The notes beneath the pieces were generated by a model. It was not told the origin of the DNA and ran no database searches. It saw only the letters and a list, made by a program, of their open reading frames with translations. The position numbers and the translations under genes were made by a program. Shown here piece after piece: positions 5,875 to 28,387 of a DNA stretch of 31,459 bases. Source of the stretch: a virus; IMG/VR virus record IMGVR_UViG_3300031963_000623, positions 1 through 31,459 of that record. One strand, written 5' to 3'. Numbering within the stretch: position 1 is the stretch's first letter; each line of letters begins with the position of its first letter.

Positions 5875-6486
5875 ATGACCACCAAACCCATCTTTTACCC
5901 CATCATTGACAACGGCATGGGCCTTTCCGTCACTGGCTGGGCCGTCAGCATGATGGCGGCGCTGCAAGGCCAAAGCGTTTTCTGCCATCTCAGCACACCG
6001 TATCCAGGCTATGCCATGGACATTGCCACCAAACAGTTCCTCGAAAGCGATTGCGAGGAAATGATCGTCATCGACACCGATCTCGTGTTCAAGCCGCAGG
6101 ACCTCGCGCACCTGCGGGAACATGATGAGCCGCTGGTGTTCGGGCTTTACTCCAAGCGCACCGTCAAGTTTGACCCGCCCGTGGTGCCCATCGTTGGGCA
6201 GGAAAACCCGGCGCTTCAGCCCGGCGTCTTGTGGGAGGTGCAGAAGACCGCCCGCGGCTTCATGCGTGTGCATCGCAGCGTCTTCGAGACGATGCGCCCG
6301 CATGTGAAGCTCATGGAAAACACTGAGTTTGGCAGCATGCACTGCTACTGGCCCACTTCCTACGACGGCACCAGCGAGGACTTCGCCTTCTGCGCCAAGT
6401 GGCGCGAGCTCGGCGGTCGCGTGCTCATCGACAAACGCGTGTTCGTCGGCCACGTCGGTCAGGCGAAGTTTCCGATCATGAAGTGA
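5875..6486 (+). CDS. GT-A fold glycosyltransferase
   Basis: 203 residues. It has the shape of small phage glycosyltransferases: an N-terminal nucleotide-binding region, the strand EEMIVIDTDLVF with a DxD metal/sugar-nucleotide motif (Asp67, Asp69), a central acceptor region, and TSEDFAFC near 166-173 giving the acidic catalytic motif, followed by VFVGHVG with a candidate metal-binding His near 193. The family transfers a sugar from a nucleotide sugar to protein, DNA or glycan. A place between packaging and portal genes suggests modification of a virion protein or of phage DNA. It is distinct from the second glycosyltransferase at 19470. The leader is A/C-rich with no Shine-Dalgarno. Confidence 0.75.
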   Translation: MTTKPIFYPIIDNGMGLSVTGWAVSMMAALQGQSVFCHLSTPYPGYAMDIATKQFLESDCEEMIVIDTDLVFKPQDLAHLREHDEPLVFGLYSKRTVKFDPPVVPIVGQENPALQPGVLWEVQKTARGFMRVHRSVFETMRPHVKLMENTEFGSMHCYWPTSYDGTSEDFAFCAKWRELGGRVLIDKRVFVGHVGQAKFPIMK

Positions 6487-12933: not shown

Positions 12934-12940
12934 CACCGCC

Positions 12941-13648
12941 ATGGCCGTGCGTGAACACATCGCCTTCAACACGGCCTTTGAAGATGCCGTCCGCCCCACG
13001 GGCCTGCTCACGGCCATGAGCAGCAATGCCACAGTCAAAAGCGATCTGCTGGCGCTCTTCAATCGCAGTTACAAGATCGGCTACGAGCTGCCTTTCCAAA
13101 GCAATGTGTTTTGGGAAGATGCCCGCACCTGGGCGGAGATCACGCCGAGCAGCGGCCTCATCGCCTGGGATGTGCTGGGGGATGCCCGGAACATCGAAGT
13201 CTGGACCAAAGACCCGCGGGAGACGCGGCTCGCCAGCAGCGTCACCTTCTTCACCGACAAAACCGGCCTCGCCGTGAGCGAGGAACTGGAAACCGTGTGG
13301 GTGAGCTGGGTGCCGCGCATCTACAAATTCAACACGACCGCCTGGGCCACGGCCACCGCCTATGTCGTCGGCGATGTGCGCACCGTGAGCACCAGCGGCG
13401 AGTGCTATCGCTGCCTTGTCGGACACACCAGCGGCACCTTTACCACTGATCTGGCGGCCAGCAGATGGGTGCTCATGCCCGTGCTGGAGGTGCTGCACGA
13501 GTTTCTCATCCGCCACCTGCATGCCACGCACCTCCGCGAAACCGGCCAGGTGCAGACCGGTGTCTCCCTGCAAACCGCCGCCTTGCAAGACCTCCTCGAA
13601 ACCCACCGCGCCGAGCTGCGGCGCAACCGCGAAACCCCCAAACCCTGA
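12941..13648 (+). CDS. Neck or tail protein with inserted CBM5/12-like module
   Basis: 235 residues from ATG 12941; the frame extends upstream but overlaps the previous gene. The N-terminal part (FEDAVRPTGLLTAMSSNATV) and the C-terminal helical part (about 185-235) look like one structural protein. Between them, about 127-180, lies a compact aromatic module with W-x-TATAYVVGDVRT, then GECYRCLVGHTSG and a closing RWVLM, the spacing of carbohydrate-binding modules of the CBM5/12 type seen in chitinases and some phage tail proteins. It could bind host surface glycans or just reinforce the virion. Module identity is pattern-based. Confidence 0.55.
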   Translation: MAVREHIAFNTAFEDAVRPTGLLTAMSSNATVKSDLLALFNRSYKIGYELPFQSNVFWEDARTWAEITPSSGLIAWDVLGDARNIEVWTKDPRETRLASSVTFFTDKTGLAVSEELETVWVSWVPRIYKFNTTAWATATAYVVGDVRTVSTSGECYRCLVGHTSGTFTTDLAASRWVLMPVLEVLHEFLIRHLHATHLRETGQVQTGVSLQTAALQDLLETHRAELRRNRETPKP

Positions 13649-13976: not shown

Positions 13977-14903
13977 ATGACGCCCCTGCTGCACAATCCT
14001 TCTCGCTTGATCAACCCGCTGGCCCGCCAGCGGTTCATCGGGTATGGGACGGGGATGGGGGGAGGTGGCTCGTTTACCGGGGCTCTCGATGCTTACACAA
14101 CCAATCTGGATGCGGCGTGGAGCGTCAGCCGCAGGCTGCTCACGAGCTACTCGGGAGCACTGATCCGCGTGCGTCGCAGCTCGGATAACACGGAGCAGGA
14201 CATTGGTTATGTCGACGCCACGGGGCTGCTGGACACGGCGGCCTTGCTGTCCTTTGTGGGCGCGGGGAATGGCTTTGTCTGCAAGGTGTATGCGCAGAGC
14301 GGTGGGAGCGGTAAAGATTTCTTGCAAACAACCGCGGCCTCGCAGCTCCGCATTGTCAATGCCGGCAGTCTGATCACCACAGGCACAAACAACCGCGTCA
14401 TGGCGGAGGTGATCAGCGCCAGCACGCAGTTCATGGCCACGGCGGCCTTTACCGCGCTCACCGGCAGTAGCCTGACCATGAGCGCCTTTTTCCGAGCTAC
14501 TGCCAACAGCCCGGCAGGCCGCTTGTTTGGAGGGGCGCAAACAAGCCAGAATGATTCCGGCATTGGTGGCTGGATTCCTGCCTATCTTGCCAGCCCTGGC
14601 ATCAAATCATTTGATTCACCTGACAGGGCAACTTTAACGGTCAGCATGCCGGTGAACCTCAGCTATTCCTCGCTGAGCATCAGCACGGGTCACACGCTGC
14701 GCATTGCCGGCAGCAGCAATACCAGCAGCTTCACCCCGGCGGCCAAGAACATTCAGCACTGGCTGCTGTTCTGCTATTCGACCAGCATCGGGCAGTCCCA
14801 CACCGGGGACATGTTTGGTGAGGCATCGACTTGGACAGCAAACCGCGACAGCGATCAGGCCGCCATTATCGCCGAGCGCAATACTTTCTACGGAGCCCCC
14901 TGA
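13977..14903 (+). CDS. Lectin-like virion adhesin, arabinofuranosidase-catalytic-domain type
   Basis: 308 residues. After a 35-residue start comes AYTTNLDAAWSVSRRLLTSYSG-type sequence, then LIRVRRSSDNTEQDIGYVD, DTAALLSFVG and VYAQSGGSGKDFLQTT. This run is what databases commonly label as the arabinofuranosidase B catalytic-like domain in phage tail proteins; the fold is a concanavalin-like beta sandwich and many members are probably binding proteins rather than enzymes. The rest (about 140-308) is another beta-rich Ser/Thr/Gly segment. It probably binds cell-surface glycan during adsorption. Activity cannot be judged because I cannot place catalytic residues. It overlaps the next gene by TGATG. 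Confidence 0.6.
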   Translation: MTPLLHNPSRLINPLARQRFIGYGTGMGGGGSFTGALDAYTTNLDAAWSVSRRLLTSYSGALIRVRRSSDNTEQDIGYVDATGLLDTAALLSFVGAGNGFVCKVYAQSGGSGKDFLQTTAASQLRIVNAGSLITTGTNNRVMAEVISASTQFMATAAFTALTGSSLTMSAFFRATANSPAGRLFGGAQTSQNDSGIGGWIPAYLASPGIKSFDSPDRATLTVSMPVNLSYSSLSISTGHTLRIAGSSNTSSFTPAAKNIQHWLLFCYSTSIGQSHTGDMFGEASTWTANRDSDQAAIIAERNTFYGAP

Positions 14904-17579: not shown

Positions 17580-18434
17580 ATGGACGCCCTAGAAATCATC
17601 CAGTTCAAACCAGTGCCAAGCGTGGTGCCGGGAGAGCAAGGCCTGCACTTTGCCGTGCCGCTGAGCACGCTGCGGGACAAGGCCAAACTGGTGGTCGATA
17701 GCTCGACGTTTCTCAGCGCCGTGCAGAACCAGGTGATCCCGCATGGGCAGCATTTGGAGGCCAAGCTGGCCGGGCATGCGGTGAAAGATTTTGTCTTCAA
17801 AGGATGGCAGGACGGGCCGGCCGGTTACATGACGGCGATGTTTCATCGCCTGCTGACGGCTCGCGAGAGCAGCACCGAGCAGCGCACCTTGAGCGGCCCG
17901 GCCTTCAGCATGGAGCGCCCCTGGCCGAATGTGCTGGTGTATCTCGCGGCGCTGGAAGATCCGGATTCCACCTATGTGATGACCATCGGCGGGGAGGAGG
18001 TGGAGGTGCAAAAGCTCTTTGACCGCGTGTATCTCGTGCCGCAGGGCACCTACTCCAGCCCGGTGCGCCGCGAGGTGTATGTGAGCACGACGGGAAATTT
18101 TGCCCCGGCGCTGCTCGAAACGGATGTGCCAGTGCCGGGCCGCCTGCAATGGGCGCATCGCAATCTGCGTGGCGGGGTGAACTGCCTGCATCCGCGCTGC
18201 GTGTTTGAGGAGACGCAGCGGAACGCCCGCAAGCTCATGAACTGGGGCACCGTGCAGCGTCGCGAGCCCGGATCTGCCGGACGCCTCATCACCATTCCCG
18301 CTACCAATCACGTCACCTGGCAGGAGCACTGCTTTGATGTGAATGTGCAGCGCAGCGATGACGGCCAGTGGGTGCTCACGCGCCTCGTCGCCAGCCCGCC
18401 CAAAGGATTCAAAGCCGTCCGTGAAATCACATGA
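17580..18434 (+). CDS. Hypothetical protein, probable virion component
   Basis: 284 residues, not recognised. It is mixed alpha/beta with several aromatic-rich strands (AVKDFVFKGWQDGPAGYMTAMF, then TYVMTIGGEEVEVQKLFDRVYLVPQG). The C-terminal part has ITIPATNHVTWQEHCFDVNVQR. No signal, membrane helix or catalytic motif is evident. Its stop overlaps the start of the Thr-rich protein gene (ATGA at 18431-18434), placing it first in a coupled series of four genes reaching the glycosyltransferase. It could be the anchor to which the Thr-rich protein attaches, but only coupling argues for this. Confidence 0.5.
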   Translation: MDALEIIQFKPVPSVVPGEQGLHFAVPLSTLRDKAKLVVDSSTFLSAVQNQVIPHGQHLEAKLAGHAVKDFVFKGWQDGPAGYMTAMFHRLLTARESSTEQRTLSGPAFSMERPWPNVLVYLAALEDPDSTYVMTIGGEEVEVQKLFDRVYLVPQGTYSSPVRREVYVSTTGNFAPALLETDVPVPGRLQWAHRNLRGGVNCLHPRCVFEETQRNARKLMNWGTVQRREPGSAGRLITIPATNHVTWQEHCFDVNVQRSDDGQWVLTRLVASPPKGFKAVREIT

Positions 18435-18895
18435 CCCGGATCAACCAGCTTCTCACCCGGAGGCCGGTGGCGATCCACCAGCCCGGCGTGTCGTGGAGCA
18501 CAGTGGCCGGCAAAGACCTCATCACACGCGTGCAGGAGGAGCCTGAGTTCAACGAGGATCTGCCGGAGCAGGTGCGATACATTGAAACGGGCACGACGAC
18601 GACCACCACCACAACCACGACGACGGCCGAGCCCACGACCACCACGACCACGGAGGAAACGACTACCACCGAGGAAACCACGACAACGACCACCACGGAA
18701 GAGCCGACGACGACCACCACGACGACGACGACGACCACCACCACCACAACAACCACGACCACGGAAGAGACAACCACAACCACCGAGGAGCCCACAACGA
18801 CGACCACCACCACGACCACCACCACCGAAGAGCCCACCACCACCACCACGACCACCGAAGAGCCCCCAACCACGACCACCACGGAAGAGCCATGA
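18431..18895 (+). CDS. Thr-rich mucin-like protein
   Basis: 154 residues. The first 53 are ordinary sequence (LTRRPVAIHQPGVSWSTVAGKDLITRV, then EFNEDLPEQVRYIETG). Residues about 54-154 are almost entirely Thr, interrupted by EEP, AEP and EE. Thr codons are mixed (ACG, ACC, ACA), so the tract is not a simple copied microsatellite and may be kept at protein level. Such Thr-Pro-Glu tracts are extended and are classic O-glycosylation substrates. It overlaps both the gene before and the methyltransferase after (ATGA each), and a glycosyltransferase follows, so a glycosylated fibre or surface stalk is a reasonable inference. The long opposite-strand Val-rich frame is a shadow. Confidence 0.7.
   Translation: MTRINQLLTRRPVAIHQPGVSWSTVAGKDLITRVQEEPEFNEDLPEQVRYIETGTTTTTTTTTTTAEPTTTTTTEETTTTEETTTTTTTEEPTTTTTTTTTTTTTTTTTTTEETTTTTEEPTTTTTTTTTTTEEPTTTTTTTEEPPTTTTTEEP
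18590..18895 (+). repeat. ACN triplet-rich low-complexity tract
   Basis: About 300 bases of ACG/ACC/ACA triplets broken by GAG/GAA/CCC blocks, in frame in the Thr-rich gene. Unit order is irregular, with blocks like GAAGAGCCC recurring. Confidence 0.9.
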
Positions 18896-19473
18896 TGCCA
18901 CCCATTCCACCGCCTCGCGATTATCAGGAAATGAGCTGCTCCGCAGTGCCGTGGCACACGAGTTTCATTGGTCAATCGCAGCAGCACACCTACTGGCTGT
19001 ATGCCATCGTGGATCGTGTGATGCGGGCGGTGCCCGAGCTGCGCGGCATCATTGAGCTAGGCACCGGGGCGGGCGCTTTGAGCACGGTGTTTGGCCTGTG
19101 GGGTGTCGAGCGTGGCATTCCGGTGCATACGGTGGACCAGGTGATGAGGCACAAGCCGCTGCTTTTGAAGCATTTGGGCGTGTGCTTCCACCAGCAGGAC
19201 ATCTTTGCGCCTGCCACACAAGGCTTGATTCAAGACGCCGCTGCCATGGGACCGTTGTGGTTGTTCTGTGATGGTGGTCGCAAGGCGCAGGAGCTGAAGA
19301 CCTATGCGCCCATGCTGCCGCCGGGCAGTGTGATTTCTGCCCATGATCTGGGCGTGGAGTTTTCCCATGAACGCGATGCCGCGCCGCTGTGTGAGGCCGG
19401 GATCATCGAGCCATTTCATCCTGAATGGTGGATGGAAGGCAATGTGCAACTCGCCATCTATCGCCGCCGATGA
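18892..19473 (+). CDS. Class I SAM-dependent methyltransferase (CmcI-like)
   Basis: 193 residues. Motif I is IIELGTGAG near 53-61, followed by a strand IPVHTVD with an acidic residue near 82 for the SAM ribose, then LWLFCDGGRK and GSVISAHDLG, an arrangement typical of the CmcI/rhamnosyl-O-methyltransferase-like group that often modifies sugars. The gene begins inside the last codons of the Thr-rich gene (ATGATG at 18892) and its stop overlaps the glycosyltransferase start. The simplest reading is O-methylation of a sugar added by the neighbouring glycosyltransferase, perhaps on the Thr-rich protein. Substrate is inferred only. Confidence 0.75.
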   Translation: MMPPIPPPRDYQEMSCSAVPWHTSFIGQSQQHTYWLYAIVDRVMRAVPELRGIIELGTGAGALSTVFGLWGVERGIPVHTVDQVMRHKPLLLKHLGVCFHQQDIFAPATQGLIQDAAAMGPLWLFCDGGRKAQELKTYAPMLPPGSVISAHDLGVEFSHERDAAPLCEAGIIEPFHPEWWMEGNVQLAIYRRR

Positions 19474-20291
19474 AATTCACTGTCTCCATGGCCTGTTATG
19501 ATGACTTTGACGGGGTGTATTTCACCGTCCAGGCGCTGCGGGCCTACCATGACATGACGGATGTGGATTTGCTGGTGCTCGACAACCATCCCGATTCGCC
19601 ACACGGGGAGCGCCTGCGGTCCTTTGCCCCGCGTGCAGGCATGCGTTATGTGCCGGTGACGGATCGCGTGTCGAGCTGGGTGAAATATGATGCCATCCTG
19701 CATGCCGCGGGTGATGTGGTGATCGGCATGGACAGCCATGTGCTGCTCATGCCGGGGGCGCTGGATGCACTCAAAGCCTGGTGGCAGGCGCAAGCGCCTG
19801 GCTGCCGGGATCTGCTGACCGGACCAGTGATCTATGATGAACTGCAAGCGGGCAGTTCGCACCTGCTGCCGGAGTGGGGCAAGCATGACTTTGGCGTGTG
19901 GAGTCCGGTCCAAAAGCGCGATGCCACGCGGGAACCCATGGAGGTGCCGATGCAGGGCATGGGATTCTGGAGCGTGTGGCGCACGGCCTGGCCGGGTGTG
20001 CCGACGGGCATGGCAGGCTTTGGCGCGGAAGAGTGGTGCCTGGCAGAACGCATCCGCCAGCATGGCGGCCGGGTGATCAGCCATCCGGCGGTGCAATGGG
20101 GCCACCGCTTTGCCTGGCCGAAACGCACGTTTACCGTGTCGCTGGAGGACAAGGTGCGGAACTACTATCGCGGCTGGCTGAGTGTTTATCGACGTCTCGA
20201 CCATCCGCAGATGCAGGCCATGACCGCGCACTGGCAAACGCAGATGCCGCCGGAAAAGCTGCAAGGCCTCATCAAAGAGGTTTGTCCATGA
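19470..20291 (+). CDS. GT2-like glycosyltransferase
   Basis: 273 residues from ATG 19470, overlapping the methyltransferase stop; the frame extends to 19425 but that start is less likely. The N-terminus (KFTVSMACYDDFDGVYFTVQAL) is the usual GT-A opening, VDLLVLDN supports nucleotide binding, and GDVVIGMDSHVLL provides a D-x-H motif (Asp88, His90) in place of DxD. GFGAEEWCLAERIRQHGG near 190-207 is the ExW-type acceptor/catalytic motif, and WGHRF follows with a candidate metal His, as in polypeptide-sugar transferase-like enzymes. A role glycosylating the Thr-rich protein two genes upstream is attractive because all are translationally coupled. Confidence 0.75.
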   Translation: MKFTVSMACYDDFDGVYFTVQALRAYHDMTDVDLLVLDNHPDSPHGERLRSFAPRAGMRYVPVTDRVSSWVKYDAILHAAGDVVIGMDSHVLLMPGALDALKAWWQAQAPGCRDLLTGPVIYDELQAGSSHLLPEWGKHDFGVWSPVQKRDATREPMEVPMQGMGFWSVWRTAWPGVPTGMAGFGAEEWCLAERIRQHGGRVISHPAVQWGHRFAWPKRTFTVSLEDKVRNYYRGWLSVYRRLDHPQMQAMTAHWQTQMPPEKLQGLIKEVCP

Positions 20292-21700: not shown

Positions 21701-24700
21701 ATGCCGACCTACGCCCTCGAAAGCCCGCAGACCGGGCAGACCTATCAGGTGGAGTTTGACCGCGAGCCATCGCCTGCGGATCTGGACTTTGTGGCCAAGC
21801 AATTTGATGCGGAATGGTGGCAGCAGCAGGGCATCGAGCCCGGCAGCGCCATCACGCAGCAGACGCCGCTCGGCACCGTGGGCAATGCGCTCGCCAATGT
21901 GGGGCCTGCTTTGGCCGGCATGGTGGGCGGTGGCATGCGCTATCTGGACACGGCGGCGCAAGTCGTGGCCGATGTGACGGGCACGCAGCGCGGTGGATTG
22001 TTTGGCGATGTGGCGCGGCAGGCCGAAGGCATCGCCGCTGAAGGCGAGCTGCTGCGTCCGCTGAGCCCTGCGAATCCCATCGCCAGCACCATCGGCCAGG
22101 GCGCGGCGCAAGGCATCGGCCTCATCGGCACGGCGGCGGCCAGCGTGCCTGCTCTCGGTGCTCGTGGGCTGATGACGGTGCCTGCGGTGCTGGGCTTTGG
22201 TGCTGGCGCTGGCGAAGGTGTGCGCACGGGCGAGCAGATGGGCCTGAGCCCGGCGGCTCAAGTGGGCATGGGCACGGCCTTTGGCGCGGCGGAAGCGGCC
22301 ACCGAGGCGCTCGGCGGCATCGGCGGGCGTTTCCTGCCATCGGGCGGCGGCGTGGCACGGCGTGCTTTGACGGGTCTCGGCAGTGAGATCATCGAGGAAC
22401 CGGCGGCCGGAGCGCTGCAAGAAGGCATCACGAATGTGGCGGCGCTGCCCGTGATGGATGCGCAACGGCCCGGCTTTACCCAGAGCGGCTTTCAAGTGCC
22501 CGGACCACAGGGCTATCTGGAGCGTCGCGGCATGGAGGCACTCGGCGGTGCGGCCGGTGGCCTCGTGTTTGCGGGTGCTCAAGCGGCTGCTTCTTTACCT
22601 GCCAGTGTAAATGACAGGACTGCTACGCCCCCGGCCGATCAAACGGTGCCGGATGCCGGGAACGGTGCGGGTTCGACTCCCGCCGCTGGCTCCTCTGTTT
22701 CACCGTTGCCGGGCATCGCCCAGCGGGCGGGCACCGTGGATGTGCCGCCGTTGGTGCCGGGGCTGGAGGCAGAGGATCTGGGGCCGCTGACGGCGGTAGA
22801 TGTGCAGGACTTGGAGGCCGCGGCCAATCCTCCTCTTCCTCCTACTCTTACTCCTCCTCCCGGTCTGCCGGACAATCAGACCATCGGACAGGGAGACAAT
22901 CAGATGACGCCGCGGCAGCCGATTCTCGCGGGTGTGCCGGATCGCGTGGCGCCGTTCCGTGATCGGCCTTTGAATGCGGAGCCGCAGATGAGTGGCGATG
23001 TGATCACCGACCTGCGCATTCCGCGCAGCCCGGAGGCTATTGCCGAAAGCCAGCGCATCGAGCAGGAGCGGCAGCAGCAGATCGCGGAGATGCGGATGCT
23101 GGATGCGAAGGCCCGCGGCATGCCGATGATCCCGGACAGCCCGATGGGCAGCATGGACATTCTCGACTGGGCCAATGAAAACCCCATCTACCTGCCGCCC
23201 GGTTTCTCCGAAGATCGCAAGCTGCCGGAGTATGAGAGCCTGAAGCGCAACCCGCTGCCGAATTACTGGCGGCGGTTCGTCGCCAGTGGCAAGCAGGGCG
23301 GCAACCCGGACAGCGTGGCACAGCGTGCCTTTGATGCCGGCTTGATCGCGGAGCCGACGGCAGATGCCTACTTTGCCGCCGTGCAGGATGGCATCGCGGC
23401 GCGGAAGCAATACCGCGTGCAGTTCCAGCAGCGTGACAAGGCGCTGGCGCAGGAAGAAAAGCGCGTCGTCGATTTCGAGAAGTCGCAGACGAAGCTCGCC
23501 AAGAAACCGGATACGCAAGAGGTGCCGTTCGAGGACATCGTGCCGGGAGATCGCATGACGATCGACGGTGAAAACGCGGTGGTCAAAAACGTGGAATACA
23601 ACGAGGACGGCTATCTCACAAACGTCGTCATCGAGGACGGCAAGCGCTTTGGCTTGATGCAGTTCGATCCGCAGAATCGCGGCGGCATCCTCGTGGATGA
23701 GTTCAAGCCGCAGCCCCGGCAGGCCGTCGAGGACTTCGCCCCTGCCGAGGGGGTAAGACAGCCAATGTCCAAGGCTCCAGCTTCAAACATTGCGGGGCAG
23801 GCTTCGAACATTCCAGCACAAGCTCAGAACATTCCAGCACAAGCTCAGAACATTCCAGCACAAGCTCAGAACATTCCGGCGGGTTCAAGTCCCGCGGCTG
23901 CTAGTGGATTTCAACAGCCCGACCACATGCGGCCTCGGTTTTGGAGGGACGAACAAGGCAACGTGCGCAAAGCCAAAAAGTATTTTTATGGTTACGCTGG
24001 CGGCGGTCCTGACAACACCATTCTTAATTGGATCAAAAAGCCCAAAAGCGACGTTTTGTTTCGAGGCACCGATTTGGAAACAGAGCAATGGATTGCCAGC
24101 CAAAATGGCGTGTGGCTGGATGCCCCTACACGCACCACCACCACAGCAGCAGCCACGCGACCAGCAGCAGCCACGCGACCAGCAGCAGCACCAGCGGCCA
24201 CGCCGGGCCGGGGCGAGGGCGGAAGTGGCGGAGCAGGCGGGGCGGCATTGCTGGACGTAGCACCGAGCACCCGCCCCCGCAATCGCGGCGAGACAGCGAA
24301 GCCCCAACGCGACGACGTGCTGGCCGAGCTCGGCCAGGCCACGCGTGAAGGCGCGGCAAATCAGGCGCAGGGGACGCTGGGATTTCAGAACCTCGACACG
24401 TCTGGCCGCACGGCGGGATTTTTGAATGCAGACATTCTGGCGGAGGCCACGGACCTTTTGCGGCAGGGCATCACGGACTTCACGAACTGGAGCCGGGCGA
24501 TGCTGACGCGGTTCGGTCGCGGCATCCGCGACTACCTGCAAGGCATCTGGCAGCAGATCACGAGCCCGCAGACGAATGCCGCGCAGAACGTGCGCCTAGG
24601 CCTGCCACAAGGCACGGCCCCGGTGAGCGTGGGGCAAGGTGGGTTTGTGGGCACGGGCGGTGCATCGAGCATTCCCGATGGCCAGGCAGAGACGCAGAGC

Positions 24701-27700
24701 CGTTTTGCCAGTCCGAATCAAACAGACAATTTGTATGATGTGGAGCCCGTGGAAGTGGCGCAGGCTGAGGGGCGGGCATGGCTGGCGCAAACCGATGTGG
24801 AAACGGCGCTGCAACTTTTTGAACGGGCTGTCGTGCCGTCAGGCATGACACAGGCACGGATGTTTTATGCTCACGCCGCGTTGATCAAGCAACTGGTGAG
24901 CGCTGCTAACACCGGCACGGAACTACAACGACTGCAAGCTGAGGCGCAACTGGATCGCGCAGGGCGTGCTTGGTATGGCAGGGAAAGCCAAGAGTGGGGT
25001 CGAGCAGGTAAAGCGCGTGCTGTGTCGTCGGCGGAACTCAGCAGCGTGGCCCCGATTCTGGCAACCAAGCAAATTTTGGTGGACCGTGCCGATGCGGTGA
25101 TGAACAAGCGTTTTGAAGGCGGGGCGGGTGGTGTGGTGGAGAAGGTGAAGGCCATCCTTGAAAAGGCGGACATCGACATCACAGAACGCGTCGAGGCCAT
25201 CCTCTCGGCGGTGATGGGGTCGCGTTTGCAGCCGCGGGTGACGCTGGCGCAGGCGGTGGCCGGGCTGGTGAATGGCAAGACGCAGCGGCAGCAGATGATC
25301 GACGATGTGGCGCGGGCGCTCATGCAGCGGGCGAAGAGTCGCGAGGTGAAGCCGGGCACGCAGACGGCGCTGGCCGCCCTCGTGGCGAGCCTGAAGCGCA
25401 CGCTTGGCGCGGCGGTGAAGGGCGAGGCACTGAAGCCGGAGACACTGAAGATGGGCGAGCTGCTGGCCCGCACGTTTGTGGATCAGGTGGCGGAGGCTCC
25501 GCTGTTTGAGGAGGCGTGGAAGGCAGGCCGTGAGCAGGTGCGTGCGATGCTGATCGAGACGGGCCTGAGCGAAACGCAGGCGGAGAAGCGGCTGAATGAG
25601 CTGATGCCCGCCACGCCGACGGTGGCCTATGCGCCTGGCATGGTGAAACAGGCGGTGCAGCGTGGTTTTGAGCAGGCGGGCTATGGCCAGACGCTGACGA
25701 CACGCATGGACCGCAGCGGCCAGCGGCAGGTGGATGTGCGGGCGGAAGCGCTGCGCAATCCGCAGAAGGCCATGGAGGCGGTGATGAAGGTCTGGGATGA
25801 GGAGGCCGATGCGGCCGGCATTTCACCGGAGGCCTGGGCGCAAGGTCGAGCACTGGCATGGAAAGCACTGGGCGAGACCATGCAGCAATGGCAGGCGCAG
25901 CAGCAGGCGACGCAGGCCAAGGCGGATGCGGCGGCGAAGGCGAAGCTGCTGGAGAAGGACAGCCCGGCACTGGCGAAGCTGCTGAAGTCGCTGAAGGATA
26001 AGATCGCTCCCGGCATGAGCTGGGCGGACATCTTCATGGACATGCCCAGCTCGCAACGGGAGCGGCAGCGGGAGATTTATCGTCGCCTCATGCTTGATGA
26101 GCGGCTGAAGGATCTGACGATGGAGCAGCGGTTGGATTTGACGAACGAACTGGACCGCGCCTGGCAACGGGAACGCAAGGCGGTGTTTAATCGCGAGCTG
26201 GAGAAGGCGGGCATCCTCGGCGAGAAGGACAAAGGAGATCGTGACAAGGTGAAGAAGGCGCTGCCGAAACTGCTGCGCATGATCAACCTTGGCATGTTTA
26301 ACTCGGAGATGTGGCGCGAGATCGTGGCGCCGGAGTATGGTCTGAAGATGCTGACAGCGGCAGACACCGCGCAGCTTCGCGCCATGGCGGAGGCGGCGTG
26401 GAAATTGCCAGAAGGTGTGATCCGCAATCAAAAGCTCCGCGATTTGCTGAACGCGATCCAGAAGAAGACGGGCGCAAGCTGGGTGGAGGTGCTGAACTCC
26501 TACTGGACGGCGGCGGTGCTCTCCGGACTGCGCACGCAGTTTGATACCTGGCTGGCAGCGGTGAATGGCATGGGCACCAACCTGATGCAGATCGGTGGAT
26601 TGATCGCTCGCGGCCAAGGCCGGGCGGCCATCGACGCGCATGCGCAGTGGTGGCGCGGGCTGTTTGAAGGGGTGCGCGAGAGCGGACAGATCCTTTTCAA
26701 GGGTGACACGAGCTATCTGAAGCGCTTTGGCGCGGATCTCAAGAAAGCGCTCGAAGGTGAAACATCGGTGACACCGGTGCCGCTGGGAGAGAACCTGTGG
26801 CAGAATGGCAACACCTTTCAGAAATACGGGCTGGCTCCGGTGATGATGTTCACCGGCCGGCTGATGGCGGCCGCGGACCACATCAACAACACGGCGACCA
26901 CGCAAAGTGCCATCGCGGTGGCGCGGGCGCTGCATCCCGAGCTTTACCAAGGCAAGGTGGGCTTCACGGCTGCCGAGCGGGCCAATGCCCGAGCCCAGGC
27001 GCTGCGGGAAGTGACCGGCGGACGCGAGCCGCAGACGAGCGAGGAACGTGCCACGGTGAGCGCTCGTGCTCGCGAGATCCTGAACGGCAGCCTGCAAGCG
27101 GAGGACTACGCCGCCGCCAGTGAGATCGGCGACATGGCGGCCTATCAGAATGATCCGACGGGGATGTTCGGTTACATTTACAATGCCATGAAGCAGGGGC
27201 TCGGCACGATCCAGCGCGGGCTGAATGATTATGCGCAGGACGTGACGGCCAATCGCTTTGCCCGTGTCGCCGCAGGTGTGATGGCGGGCTCACTGCATGG
27301 CGTGACGGGCACGCGGTTCATGCGCTTCGGGGCTAACTTTGGCGCGGATATGACGCGCTACATTCCCGGCAGCTATGTGCTGGGCAAGGCAGGGTTTTAC
27401 GGTCGCGAGGTGAGCCGGGCGCAGCAGGAACTGCTGCTGGGCAAGAACCTCGTGGGCCTGATGCTGATGAGCACGCTGGCGGCGGTGTTTCTGAACTCCG
27501 ATGACGAGGATGAAGGCTGGCAGATCGAAGGTGATTGGAGCACGCTGAATCCGCAGCAGGTAAAGGAACGCATGGCGGCCGGCCTCGAACGCATGACGCT
27601 GTGGAAACGCGAGAACGGGCAGGTGCGCCGCGTGAGCTACAAGCAATGGCCGACGATGGGGCTTTTCTCCGTGGTCGGTGGCATGCTCGACGAGAAGCGG

Positions 27701-28387
27701 CACAAGCCTGCGCAGTTTGCCCAGCACGGCACGGCGGGCCATCTGCTGCGTGGCATTGCCACGGGCTACACGCAGATCAAGAACGTGTCAGCGGTGCGGA
27801 ATCTGGTGGAGTTGTTCGGCGAGCCGACTTTCTCTGCGGATGCCGTCAATGGCACGATCGACAAGATGATCAAGACGGGCACCAACTTTGCGGGTGGCTT
27901 TGTCCCGACGCTGATCAAGGACGCGGACATCTGGACCGATCCGCGCAGCTTCAAGCCCGAAGGCGTGGCGGAGATGATGCTGCGCAACACGCCGATCCTG
28001 CGCAAGTATGTGAACGACGGCCGCCCGCAGCTCAATCTGCTGGGCGAAGAGGTGAAGCTGCAACGAGTGCCGTGGTCGCGTGCCTACACGAACGTGCAGA
28101 GTGCGGAGGCGCATCGCGTGCTCGGTGCCCTGCTGGCCCGTGGCCTCGCCCTGCCGATGCCGAGTGATGAAGTGAAGCTCTACCAGAACGGCGTCAAGGT
28201 GCCGCTGGAAACGCTGGGCCGCGAGGCGGTGTGGCAATACGAACGTGCCGTTGGCCAAGGCTATAAGGACTGGCTGAGCACCGACGGCGCGGCCCTGCTG
28301 ACGCTGCCGGTGGATCAGGCGGAGAAGGCAATTCAACGCCGGGCCGAGACGATCAAACGCCAGGCGCTGGGGAGGGTGCAGCGGTGA
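21701..28387 (+). CDS. Giant internal virion/ejection protein, polyvalent-protein-like
   Basis: 2228 residues, the largest gene. It opens with YALESPQTGQTYQVEFDREP, a short motif seen at the start of many large phage internal proteins. Residues about 55-260 are Gly/Ala-rich and hydrophobic (for example NPIASTIGQGAAQGIGLIGT) and could be membrane active. A Pro-rich linker, an SH3-like strand set (EDIVPGDRMTIDGENAVVKNVEY), a heptapeptide repeat (about 696-730) and an Ala/Pro linker follow, then FTNWSRAMLTRFGRGIRDYL near 930. The second half is largely helical, with a hydrophobic helix near 1917. This resembles podovirus internal proteins that form the DNA-ejection channel. No lysozyme, protease or toxin motif is evident. 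Linkers contain tRNA-like DNA. Confidence 0.65.
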   Translation: MPTYALESPQTGQTYQVEFDREPSPADLDFVAKQFDAEWWQQQGIEPGSAITQQTPLGTVGNALANVGPALAGMVGGGMRYLDTAAQVVADVTGTQRGGLFGDVARQAEGIAAEGELLRPLSPANPIASTIGQGAAQGIGLIGTAAASVPALGARGLMTVPAVLGFGAGAGEGVRTGEQMGLSPAAQVGMGTAFGAAEAATEALGGIGGRFLPSGGGVARRALTGLGSEIIEEPAAGALQEGITNVAALPVMDAQRPGFTQSGFQVPGPQGYLERRGMEALGGAAGGLVFAGAQAAASLPASVNDRTATPPADQTVPDAGNGAGSTPAAGSSVSPLPGIAQRAGTVDVPPLVPGLEAEDLGPLTAVDVQDLEAAANPPLPPTLTPPPGLPDNQTIGQGDNQMTPRQPILAGVPDRVAPFRDRPLNAEPQMSGDVITDLRIPRSPEAIAESQRIEQERQQQIAEMRMLDAKARGMPMIPDSPMGSMDILDWANENPIYLPPGFSEDRKLPEYESLKRNPLPNYWRRFVASGKQGGNPDSVAQRAFDAGLIAEPTADAYFAAVQDGIAARKQYRVQFQQRDKALAQEEKRVVDFEKSQTKLAKKPDTQEVPFEDIVPGDRMTIDGENAVVKNVEYNEDGYLTNVVIEDGKRFGLMQFDPQNRGGILVDEFKPQPRQAVEDFAPAEGVRQPMSKAPASNIAGQASNIPAQAQNIPAQAQNIPAQAQNIPAGSSPAAASGFQQPDHMRPRFWRDEQGNVRKAKKYFYGYAGGGPDNTILNWIKKPKSDVLFRGTDLETEQWIASQNGVWLDAPTRTTTTAAATRPAAATRPAAAPAATPGRGEGGSGGAGGAALLDVAPSTRPRNRGETAKPQRDDVLAELGQATREGAANQAQGTLGFQNLDTSGRTAGFLNADILAEATDLLRQGITDFTNWSRAMLTRFGRGIRDYLQGIWQQITSPQTNAAQNVRLGLPQGTAPVSVGQGGFVGTGGASSIPDGQAETQSRFASPNQTDNLYDVEPVEVAQAEGRAWLAQTDVETALQLFERAVVPSGMTQARMFYAHAALIKQLVSAANTGTELQRLQAEAQLDRAGRAWYGRESQEWGRAGKARAVSSAELSSVAPILATKQILVDRADAVMNKRFEGGAGGVVEKVKAILEKADIDITERVEAILSAVMGSRLQPRVTLAQAVAGLVNGKTQRQQMIDDVARALMQRAKSREVKPGTQTALAALVASLKRTLGAAVKGEALKPETLKMGELLARTFVDQVAEAPLFEEAWKAGREQVRAMLIETGLSETQAEKRLNELMPATPTVAYAPGMVKQAVQRGFEQAGYGQTLTTRMDRSGQRQVDVRAEALRNPQKAMEAVMKVWDEEADAAGISPEAWAQGRALAWKALGETMQQWQAQQQATQAKADAAAKAKLLEKDSPALAKLLKSLKDKIAPGMSWADIFMDMPSSQRERQREIYRRLMLDERLKDLTMEQRLDLTNELDRAWQRERKAVFNRELEKAGILGEKDKGDRDKVKKALPKLLRMINLGMFNSEMWREIVAPEYGLKMLTAADTAQLRAMAEAAWKLPEGVIRNQKLRDLLNAIQKKTGASWVEVLNSYWTAAVLSGLRTQFDTWLAAVNGMGTNLMQIGGLIARGQGRAAIDAHAQWWRGLFEGVRESGQILFKGDTSYLKRFGADLKKALEGETSVTPVPLGENLWQNGNTFQKYGLAPVMMFTGRLMAAADHINNTATTQSAIAVARALHPELYQGKVGFTAAERANARAQALREVTGGREPQTSEERATVSARAREILNGSLQAEDYAAASEIGDMAAYQNDPTGMFGYIYNAMKQGLGTIQRGLNDYAQDVTANRFARVAAGVMAGSLHGVTGTRFMRFGANFGADMTRYIPGSYVLGKAGFYGREVSRAQQELLLGKNLVGLMLMSTLAAVFLNSDDEDEGWQIEGDWSTLNPQQVKERMAAGLERMTLWKRENGQVRRVSYKQWPTMGLFSVVGGMLDEKRHKPAQFAQHGTAGHLLRGIATGYTQIKNVSAVRNLVELFGEPTFSADAVNGTIDKMIKTGTNFAGGFVPTLIKDADIWTDPRSFKPEGVAEMMLRNTPILRKYVNDGRPQLNLLGEEVKLQRVPWSRAYTNVQSAEAHRVLGALLARGLALPMPSDEVKLYQNGVKVPLETLGREAVWQYERAVGQGYKDWLSTDGAALLTLPVDQAEKAIQRRAETIKRQALGRVQR
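22601..22691 (+). other. tRNA-shaped sequence inside the giant coding gene
   Basis: GCCAGTG at 22601-22607 can pair over 7 bases (one G-T) with CGCTGGC at 22684-22690. Just before the latter is a perfect T-arm: GCGGG, loop TTCGACT, CCCGC (22667-22683). TA follows the 5' stem as at tRNA positions 8-9, and TCC follows the 3' stem, like the 3' end of some tRNA-Thr genes. The middle has no convincing D-arm or anticodon arm and the total is 91 bases, so it is not a working tRNA. The reading frame stays open through it. Confidence 0.4.
23786..23890 (+). repeat. 21-bp tandem repeat encoding NIPAQAQ
   Basis: Three perfect copies of a 21-base unit beginning AACATTCCAGC (23807-23869), with a diverged copy on each side. 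It encodes a heptapeptide repeat in a linker of the giant protein. Confidence 0.9.
23879..23895 (+). other. Second tRNA T-arm mimic in the giant gene
   Basis: GCGGG, loop TTCAAGT, CCCGC. It matches the T-arm and following bases at 22667-22688 at 19 of 22 positions and lies in the same codon phase (AGS-T/S-PAA). No matching 5' acceptor stem was found upstream. Confidence 0.4.
24145..24193 (+). repeat. 18-bp tandem repeat (Ala-Thr-Arg-Pro linker)
   Basis: Two perfect copies of AGCAGCAGCCACGCGACC plus a partial third, encoding an Ala/Thr/Arg/Pro linker at the end of a locally less GC-rich insert. Confidence 0.85.

Follow-up and report, generated by a model that had tools for sequence, protein, structure and literature searches.

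The four open reading frames (ORFs) at positions 17580–20291 of the virus record IMGVR_UViG_3300031963_000623 encode, among others, a Thr-rich protein directly followed by a methyltransferase and a glycosyltransferase (GT), and it is this gene set that was analysed here. The whole 31,459-base record, which has no end repeats, is called the window below. All four ORFs lie on the plus strand and each overlaps the next one by ATGA, as the first-pass annotation of this DNA had stated. The first ORF (17580..18434) encodes a protein of 284 aa, a probable virion protein, for which no match was found in Pfam or PHROG. In the related phage loci L017 and L018, a 281-aa protein is likewise encoded ahead of the Thr protein, and the L018 copy proved to be a distant relative of the window protein (23% identity over 274 aa, E 3e-7 in a small database). 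The second ORF (18431..18895) encodes the proposed O-glycan acceptor, a 154-aa protein consisting of a 51-residue head and a 103-residue Thr/Glu/Pro tail that extends to the stop codon. It is followed by the gene of a 193-aa S-adenosylmethionine (SAM)-dependent O-methyltransferase (18892..19473) with a CmcI/COMT-like fold and the motif ELGTGAG, which would methylate a sugar, and by the gene of a 273-aa GT-A glycosyltransferase (19470..20291) resembling polypeptide GalNAc-transferases, which is proposed to transfer the first sugar onto Thr. The start of the GT gene was set to 19470 instead of 19425, the start of the longest ORF, because the family alignment begins at the Met of position 19470.

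The Thr tract (residues 52–154, 18584..18892) contains 76 Thr, 18 Glu, and 7 Pro, while Thr makes up 6.4% of the residues elsewhere in the window genes. The earlier description of about 100 Thr-rich residues broken by EEP blocks was right as to length and composition, but the spacers also include EE, AEP, and EEPP. A long and repetitive Ser/Thr/Pro-rich region, by which mucin-like domains are recognized, is present here with irregularly repeated spacers. The protein ends with ...TTTTTEEP and no folded domain follows the tract. The stalk or fibre proposed at first is not supported: what the tract forms is a tail at the C-terminus that is presumably disordered and lacks a tip domain. The Thr codons of the tract (ACC 39, ACG 29, ACA 7, and ACT 1) resemble those of the genome (202, 205, 32, and 18, respectively), and identical Thr codons are neighbours 31 times compared with 27 in shuffled sequences (P = 0.17). 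This mixed, genome-like codon usage without an excess of identical neighbours indicates that the tract is a coding-level feature, in agreement with the former suggestion that the protein tract is selected, and it ruled out a DNA microsatellite as the origin of the tract. The Val-rich and Arg-rich frames found opposite the tract are by-products of the repeat. Two further contigs of the same phage carry the identical tract at a DNA identity of about 99.96%. A third one, L005, departs inside the tract (L005:11070) into a reversed Gly-rich gene of another phage; it is likely an assembly chimera, judging from this junction, and was excluded.

The window GT alone gave only a weak GT2 match in Pfam (E 0.017) and five weak matches among the sequences of the Protein Data Bank (PDB), two of which were polypeptide GalNAc-transferases. 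Scanning viral contigs with a three-row GT alignment revealed 191 relatives, and a 33-row family alignment (profile A2) was used subsequently. Glycos_transf_2 was recognized in 32 of the 33 family members and Glyco_transf_7C weakly in two, so the GT2-like label of the first-pass annotation, weak for the window enzyme itself, stands for the family. Eight residues are invariant in the alignment: D38, D88, H90, E187, E188, H212, R213, and F214. The D-x-H metal/nucleotide motif D88-S89-H90 (19731..19739), in which D and H are invariant, aligns with the D-S-H of GalNAc-T10, E187-E188 (20028..20033) of the G-F-G-x-E-E motif with the W-G-G-E of GalNAc-T10 and T7, and H212-R213-F214 (20103..20111) of the W-x-H-R-F motif is the counterpart of V-G-H-x-F in GalNAc-transferases. 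The family profile itself recovered GalNAc-T10 (E 1.4e-4), and in this match both the D-x-H and the C-terminal motifs were aligned. The AlphaFold2 model of the GT, which is of high confidence (pLDDT 92.7, pTM 0.90), pointed in the same direction. The top 49 chains found with it by Foldseek were all polypeptide GalNAc-transferases (E from 9e-14), and a second structural alignment ranked 29 GalNAc-transferase entries first (Z 20.2–24.7), followed by chondroitin polymerase (19.3), B4GALNT1 (18.6), and RmlT (18.5). The best match superimposed at 2.7 Å over 255 of the 273 residues, and the whole model corresponded to residues 136–412 of GalNAc-T2. The enzyme thus shares with family GT27, the initiators of animal and protist mucin-type glycosylation, a GT-A catalytic fold that is closest to GalNAc-transferases and extends over all 273 residues, the conserved D-x-H, the Glu (G-G-E in GalNAc-transferases), and the terminal His, besides a Thr-rich region as putative acceptor. 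On the basis of the model, we propose that this GT, though outside GT27 by sequence, works like a polypeptide GalNAc-transferase, that is, as a mucin-type initiator. Among 50,697 named phage records no detectable relative of the window GT, the window methyltransferase, or the GT of locus L045 was found, and the closest terminase in these records is 23% identical to that of the window.

The methyltransferase (METHYLTRANSFERASE) matched no Pfam or PHROG family. Its model, built from a three-row alignment, showed a class I SAM methyltransferase, and in the structural ranking the CmcI entries came first (Z 10.4), with COMT less than one Z unit behind. The earlier CmcI-like label is favoured by structural rank, but is not backed by a Pfam match and is hardly separable from COMT. 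The window enzyme resembles CmcI/COMT-like O-methyltransferases in its fold and SAM motif, at about 14% identity to CmcI. Homologues (58–60% identity) were detected only in the loci L014 and L015, each directly before the GT gene and after that of a Thr-tailed protein; in L015, a GT2 gene is inserted between the Thr-tailed protein and the methyltransferase. A search anchored on the methyltransferase returned the same three distinct phages only. Of the linkage of the tract with both enzymes, for which a search in related phages had been suggested, the part concerning the GT is conserved; the CmcI-like methyltransferase was found in these three phages.

The neighbourhoods of related GTs, found in metagenomic and often cut contigs, showed a recurrent arrangement. 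In L012–L016, a GT of 48–50% identity is encoded downstream of an approximately 1000-aa structural protein ending in a Thr tract (TTTT...EEP or TTTT...APP/VPP), and variable decorating genes, named by Pfam or similarity, lie between them. These encode a methyltransferase in L012/L094, a CmcI-like methyltransferase in L014, GT2 and a CmcI-like methyltransferase in L015/L101, and an FkbM-type methyltransferase in L016/L100; in L017, the decorators are GT9 and a polysaccharide pyruvyl transferase. O-methylation, which had been envisaged as the modification of the sugar, would accordingly be one decoration among several, being replaced by another methyltransferase, an FkbM domain, a pyruvyl transferase, or extra GTs. 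When the approximately 1000-aa structural protein was used as an anchor instead of the GT (search A4), the GT was present in all seven Thr-tailed phages with a complete downstream region (L094, L100, L101, L103, L108, L110, and L111), five of which had already been in the GT-anchored set, L103 and L108 being new. In L097, whose tail and genes are the same as those of L098, and in L099, the tail is of (PTPDVS)n type and the GT is replaced by GT8 and a protein that joins a methyltransferase to a GT29 sialyltransferase-like domain (L097:12962-14071; PF00777, E 5e-18). With GT8 as the anchor, its other relatives were not found beside repeats, and the pairing of GT8 with this tail was confined to two phages.

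Comparison of close relatives indicated that tail and enzymes are exchanged together. The structural protein bodies of L099 and L110 share 92.8% protein identity. At the DNA level, the two phages match at 90.4% as far as the body reaches (L099:3679/L110:11952) and resemble each other again once the next gene begins (L099:6529/L110:13825), while no DNA similarity was detectable between their tails and enzyme genes. Similarly, L094 and L108, which are 95% identical, diverge from the start of the tail to the start of the GT gene, where the spacer type and the decorator differ but the Thr tail and the GT stay. Of all the evidence for tail and enzymes being one functional unit, this block exchange is the strongest.

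The position of the tract relative to the GT was then compared across collections, with at least 14 Thr in 30 residues taken as a tract. After dereplication at 85% GT identity, 39 phage loci remained, in which a same-strand upstream tract occurred within 3 kb in 10 cases and at 3–8 kb in two, and a downstream one in none, similar lengths of DNA having been searched upstream and downstream. The GT homologues from a genome collection are mostly 33–43% identical and come from many phyla; in their 76 dereplicated loci, the tract lay within 3 kb upstream in 19, at 3–8 kb upstream in none, within 3 kb downstream in three, and further downstream in two. The Thr-rich proteins upstream of these homologues are unrelated to the phage ones: the tract-bearing neighbours are phage structural proteins in one set and, in several loci of the other, small proteins with a twin-arginine-like head (one matching TIGR01409) and a Thr/Pro tail. 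On the GT tree computed by FastTree, 19 changes were required for the tract trait, which was nearly unclustered among the genome loci (16 changes compared with a shuffled mean of 18.7). The recurrent association of the GT with proteins sharing little but the tract favours the tract as the acceptor. It is worth mentioning that in L235, L250, L275, and similar genome loci the Thr/Pro-tailed proteins with a twin-arginine-like head stand beside GTs fused to an HprK-like kinase or DUF6065, a bacterial gene cluster that is apparently undescribed. In the literature we found nothing relevant on Thr-rich phage proteins as glycan acceptors, nor on the HprK-related kinase.

A comparable arrangement was found in L161 and cultured phages of Gram-positive bacteria (L324–L329), whose hosts are Enterococcus, Lactobacillus, Staphylococcus, and Arcanobacterium. 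Here the protein with the Thr tail is the capsid protein, the major tail protein, or a small neighbour of these, and its gene directly precedes that of an unannotated protein of approximately 290 aa with a D-S-D motif. This unannotated protein is encoded in 74 phage records, and the Thr tail adjoined it in all six that were examined (phiFL1A, PLE3, 4995_1, 9183, vB-SscS-F1, and TPWB06). It may be GT-like, as its motif suggests, but has no Pfam match, and its sequence is not detectably related to that of the window GT, which sets these phages apart from the window in spite of the similar layout. Enterococcus phage 9183 has a Thr tract outside the annotated genes (L326:2310-2400), in the gap that separates the capsid gene from that of the GT-like protein, where a small gene has probably been missed.

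Few phages are known to have glycosylated particles. Freeman et al. (2023) reportedly described virion O-glycosylation of mycobacteriophages, including Che8 and its relatives. Three reports deal with this system (PMC11256854, PMC12619734, PMC12894461): Che8 has been reported to be glycosylated (PMC11256854), and in mycobacteriophage virions the subunits of the capsid and of the tail tube were found to carry glycans at their C-termini (PMC12619734). Its GTs are likewise phage-encoded, and the C-terminal glycans fit the position of the window tail. By eye, Che8 gp108 looks like a GT2-methyltransferase fusion; it is followed by two more GTs (gp108–gp110). In contrast to the window, where the GT is GalNAc-transferase-like and adjacent to a proposed acceptor made up of a long Thr tract, the GT genes of Che8 are far from the structural genes, and its capsid and major tail proteins end with ...GS and have no Thr tract. 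Profile A2 found no match in gp108–gp110 (best BLAST E 0.036). Since no Che8 GT matched and the Che8 proteins lack the tract, the window system is not a member of the Che8-type system. Phage virion O-glycosylation is thus already known, and what would be new is the variant with an adjacent Thr tail and a GalNAc-transferase-like GT.

Considering these results, we assume, with a probability of roughly three in four, that the locus is a phage cassette for O-glycosylating a virion protein, probably a tail protein, on its disordered and Thr-rich C-terminal tail. The assumption is built on the gene order, the tract itself, the fold similarity, the conserved motifs, the co-occurrence, and the boundaries of the exchanged blocks. 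The presence of the Thr protein in the virion is suggested by its relatives and its position. According to the proposed mechanism, the GT would transfer the first sugar from a nucleotide sugar directly onto Thr residues of the tract, in the cytoplasm, similarly to animal polypeptide GalNAc-transferases; the CmcI-like methyltransferase would then cap the sugar by O-methylation, for which other decorating enzymes may substitute in relatives, and the glycosylated tail would be displayed on the particle. The tail, the initiating GT, and the decorators would be inherited or exchanged together, by which the phage could change the sugar coat of its particle. The benefit may lie in receptor binding, shielding, or antigenic change, and selection for the exchange of tail and enzymes as a block would follow equally from a role in hiding, in the choice of receptor, or in stability. 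The core of the first-pass proposal, a module dedicated to O-glycosylation of a Thr tract, is supported by the GalNAc-transferase-like GT, the conserved adjacency, the block exchange, and the pairing seen in the genome collection. A more general reading, according to which a GalNAc-transferase-like GT dedicated to Thr tracts carries out mucin-type O-glycosylation in viruses and bacteria alike, tail and matching enzymes being swapped as a unit that alters the glycan coat, appears to us about evenly balanced.

Several points weigh against the cassette. An unbiased scan showed that Thr tracts are common in viral contigs, and in 77 of the 80 loci inspected among the matches listed a Thr-rich ORF is indeed encoded, but none of the 80 carried a window-type GT within the DNA examined, so the tract alone is not predictive of such a GT. 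Just downstream of these tracts, two GlcNAc-type GTs (PF11397; L154 and L211), one GT1-type GT, and one methyltransferase were found, and no GT upstream, which is a small difference. The refuting condition named in the first-pass annotation, Thr-rich proteins that occur without the enzymes as often as with them in homologous loci, thus received a mixed answer: Thr tails on the same structural protein are accompanied by the GT in all seven complete cases, whereas tracts at large mostly are not. Conversely, a strong Thr tract is absent from the 3 kb upstream of the GT in 29 of the 39 phage and 57 of the 76 genome loci, and in L008 and L009 a 38%-identical GT is found beside dUTPase and DNA methyltransferase genes without a tract. 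Two fused GT homologues from genomes that were scanned contain HprK-like domains, and one of them DUF6065 as well, and acceptors of another kind are thus possible in this family; in some phages, the acceptor could also lie elsewhere. The co-occurrence counts were drawn from related, non-independent phages. By sequence, the GT does not fall into GT27: GT2, a broad family, is its best assignment, its identity to GalNAc-transferases is 14–18%, and it would act without a secretory pathway. Moreover, it stops with the catalytic domain and has no ricin-type C-terminal lectin domain, which is usual but not universal in GT27 polypeptide GalNAc-transferases. The methyltransferase model is of low confidence (pLDDT 66), and the glycan on the tract is predicted from sequence and model.

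Some of these points would suit another explanation, in which the GT and the methyltransferase modify host surface glycans, leading to receptor alteration or superinfection exclusion, or the phage DNA, and the tract is an unmodified upstream spacer. Phage GTs are often presumed to target DNA or the host cell wall (PMC10202952), the GT-A enzymes next in the structural ranking have other acceptors, and many GT loci have no tract nearby. Nevertheless, we consider it unlikely, since a spacer of this kind does not account for the swapping of tail and enzymes as a block with the protein body untouched, nor for tracts lying almost solely directly upstream of the GT in both the phages and the genome collection, and the nearest fold is that of protein O-glycosyltransferases. 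It seems more improbable still that the enzymes glycosylate a virion protein at another site, for instance in its folded part or on a different structural protein, with the tract as a flexible linker or charged brush. Che8, reported as glycosylated and devoid of a Thr tract, and the abundance of tracts without a window-type GT are in line with this possibility, but the exchange replaces the tail and the enzymes only and keeps the body, and the neighbours of the non-phage GTs resemble the phage proteins only in the Thr-rich tract. That the tract is a product of repeat expansion or misassembly without selected function is largely refuted already and has very little left in its favour: low-complexity DNA misassembles easily, as the contig that is chimeric inside the tract illustrates, but the two other contigs contain the identical tract, its Thr codons are mixed at genome-like frequencies, and relatives have Thr tails at the corresponding place.

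The rest of the window encodes a DnaB-like helicase, a terminase, an amidase, and further structural genes. Two of the genes in the structural region (12935–13648 and 13977–14903) contain a carbohydrate-binding module (CBM5/12) and an arabinofuranosidase-B-like domain, which suggests a tail that may bind or cut sugar. Far from the module, at 5875–6486, a 203-aa protein of PHROG 1574 (unknown function) is encoded that has an I-D-T-D motif and resembles GT-A enzymes in a stretch at its C-terminus (34% identity to the window GT over 35 aa), possibly a second glycosyltransferase. Two further repeats were noticed: perfect 6-base repeats in 9.7 copies at 69–126, inside the ORF at the left edge, encode a Ser-Pro run and represent a second low-complexity tract of the same phage, and a perfect 21-base tandem repeat at 23806–23877 encodes NIPAQAQ units in the 2228-aa protein at 21701–28387.

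If the cassette reading is true, environmental phages carry matched tail-enzyme cassettes, whose counterparts in cultured Enterococcus, Lactobacillus, and Staphylococcus phages contain unrelated enzymes, and glycosylation of virions would be much more widespread than has been reported and predictable from sequence. It would also suggest a purpose for Thr tracts, which abound in phage genomes, and would provide compact enzymes for the production of mucin-like proteins in bacteria. As the GT family occurs in many bacterial phyla, the finding would bear on the origin of mucin-type initiation and on the question of prokaryotic relatives of mucin-type O-glycosylation.

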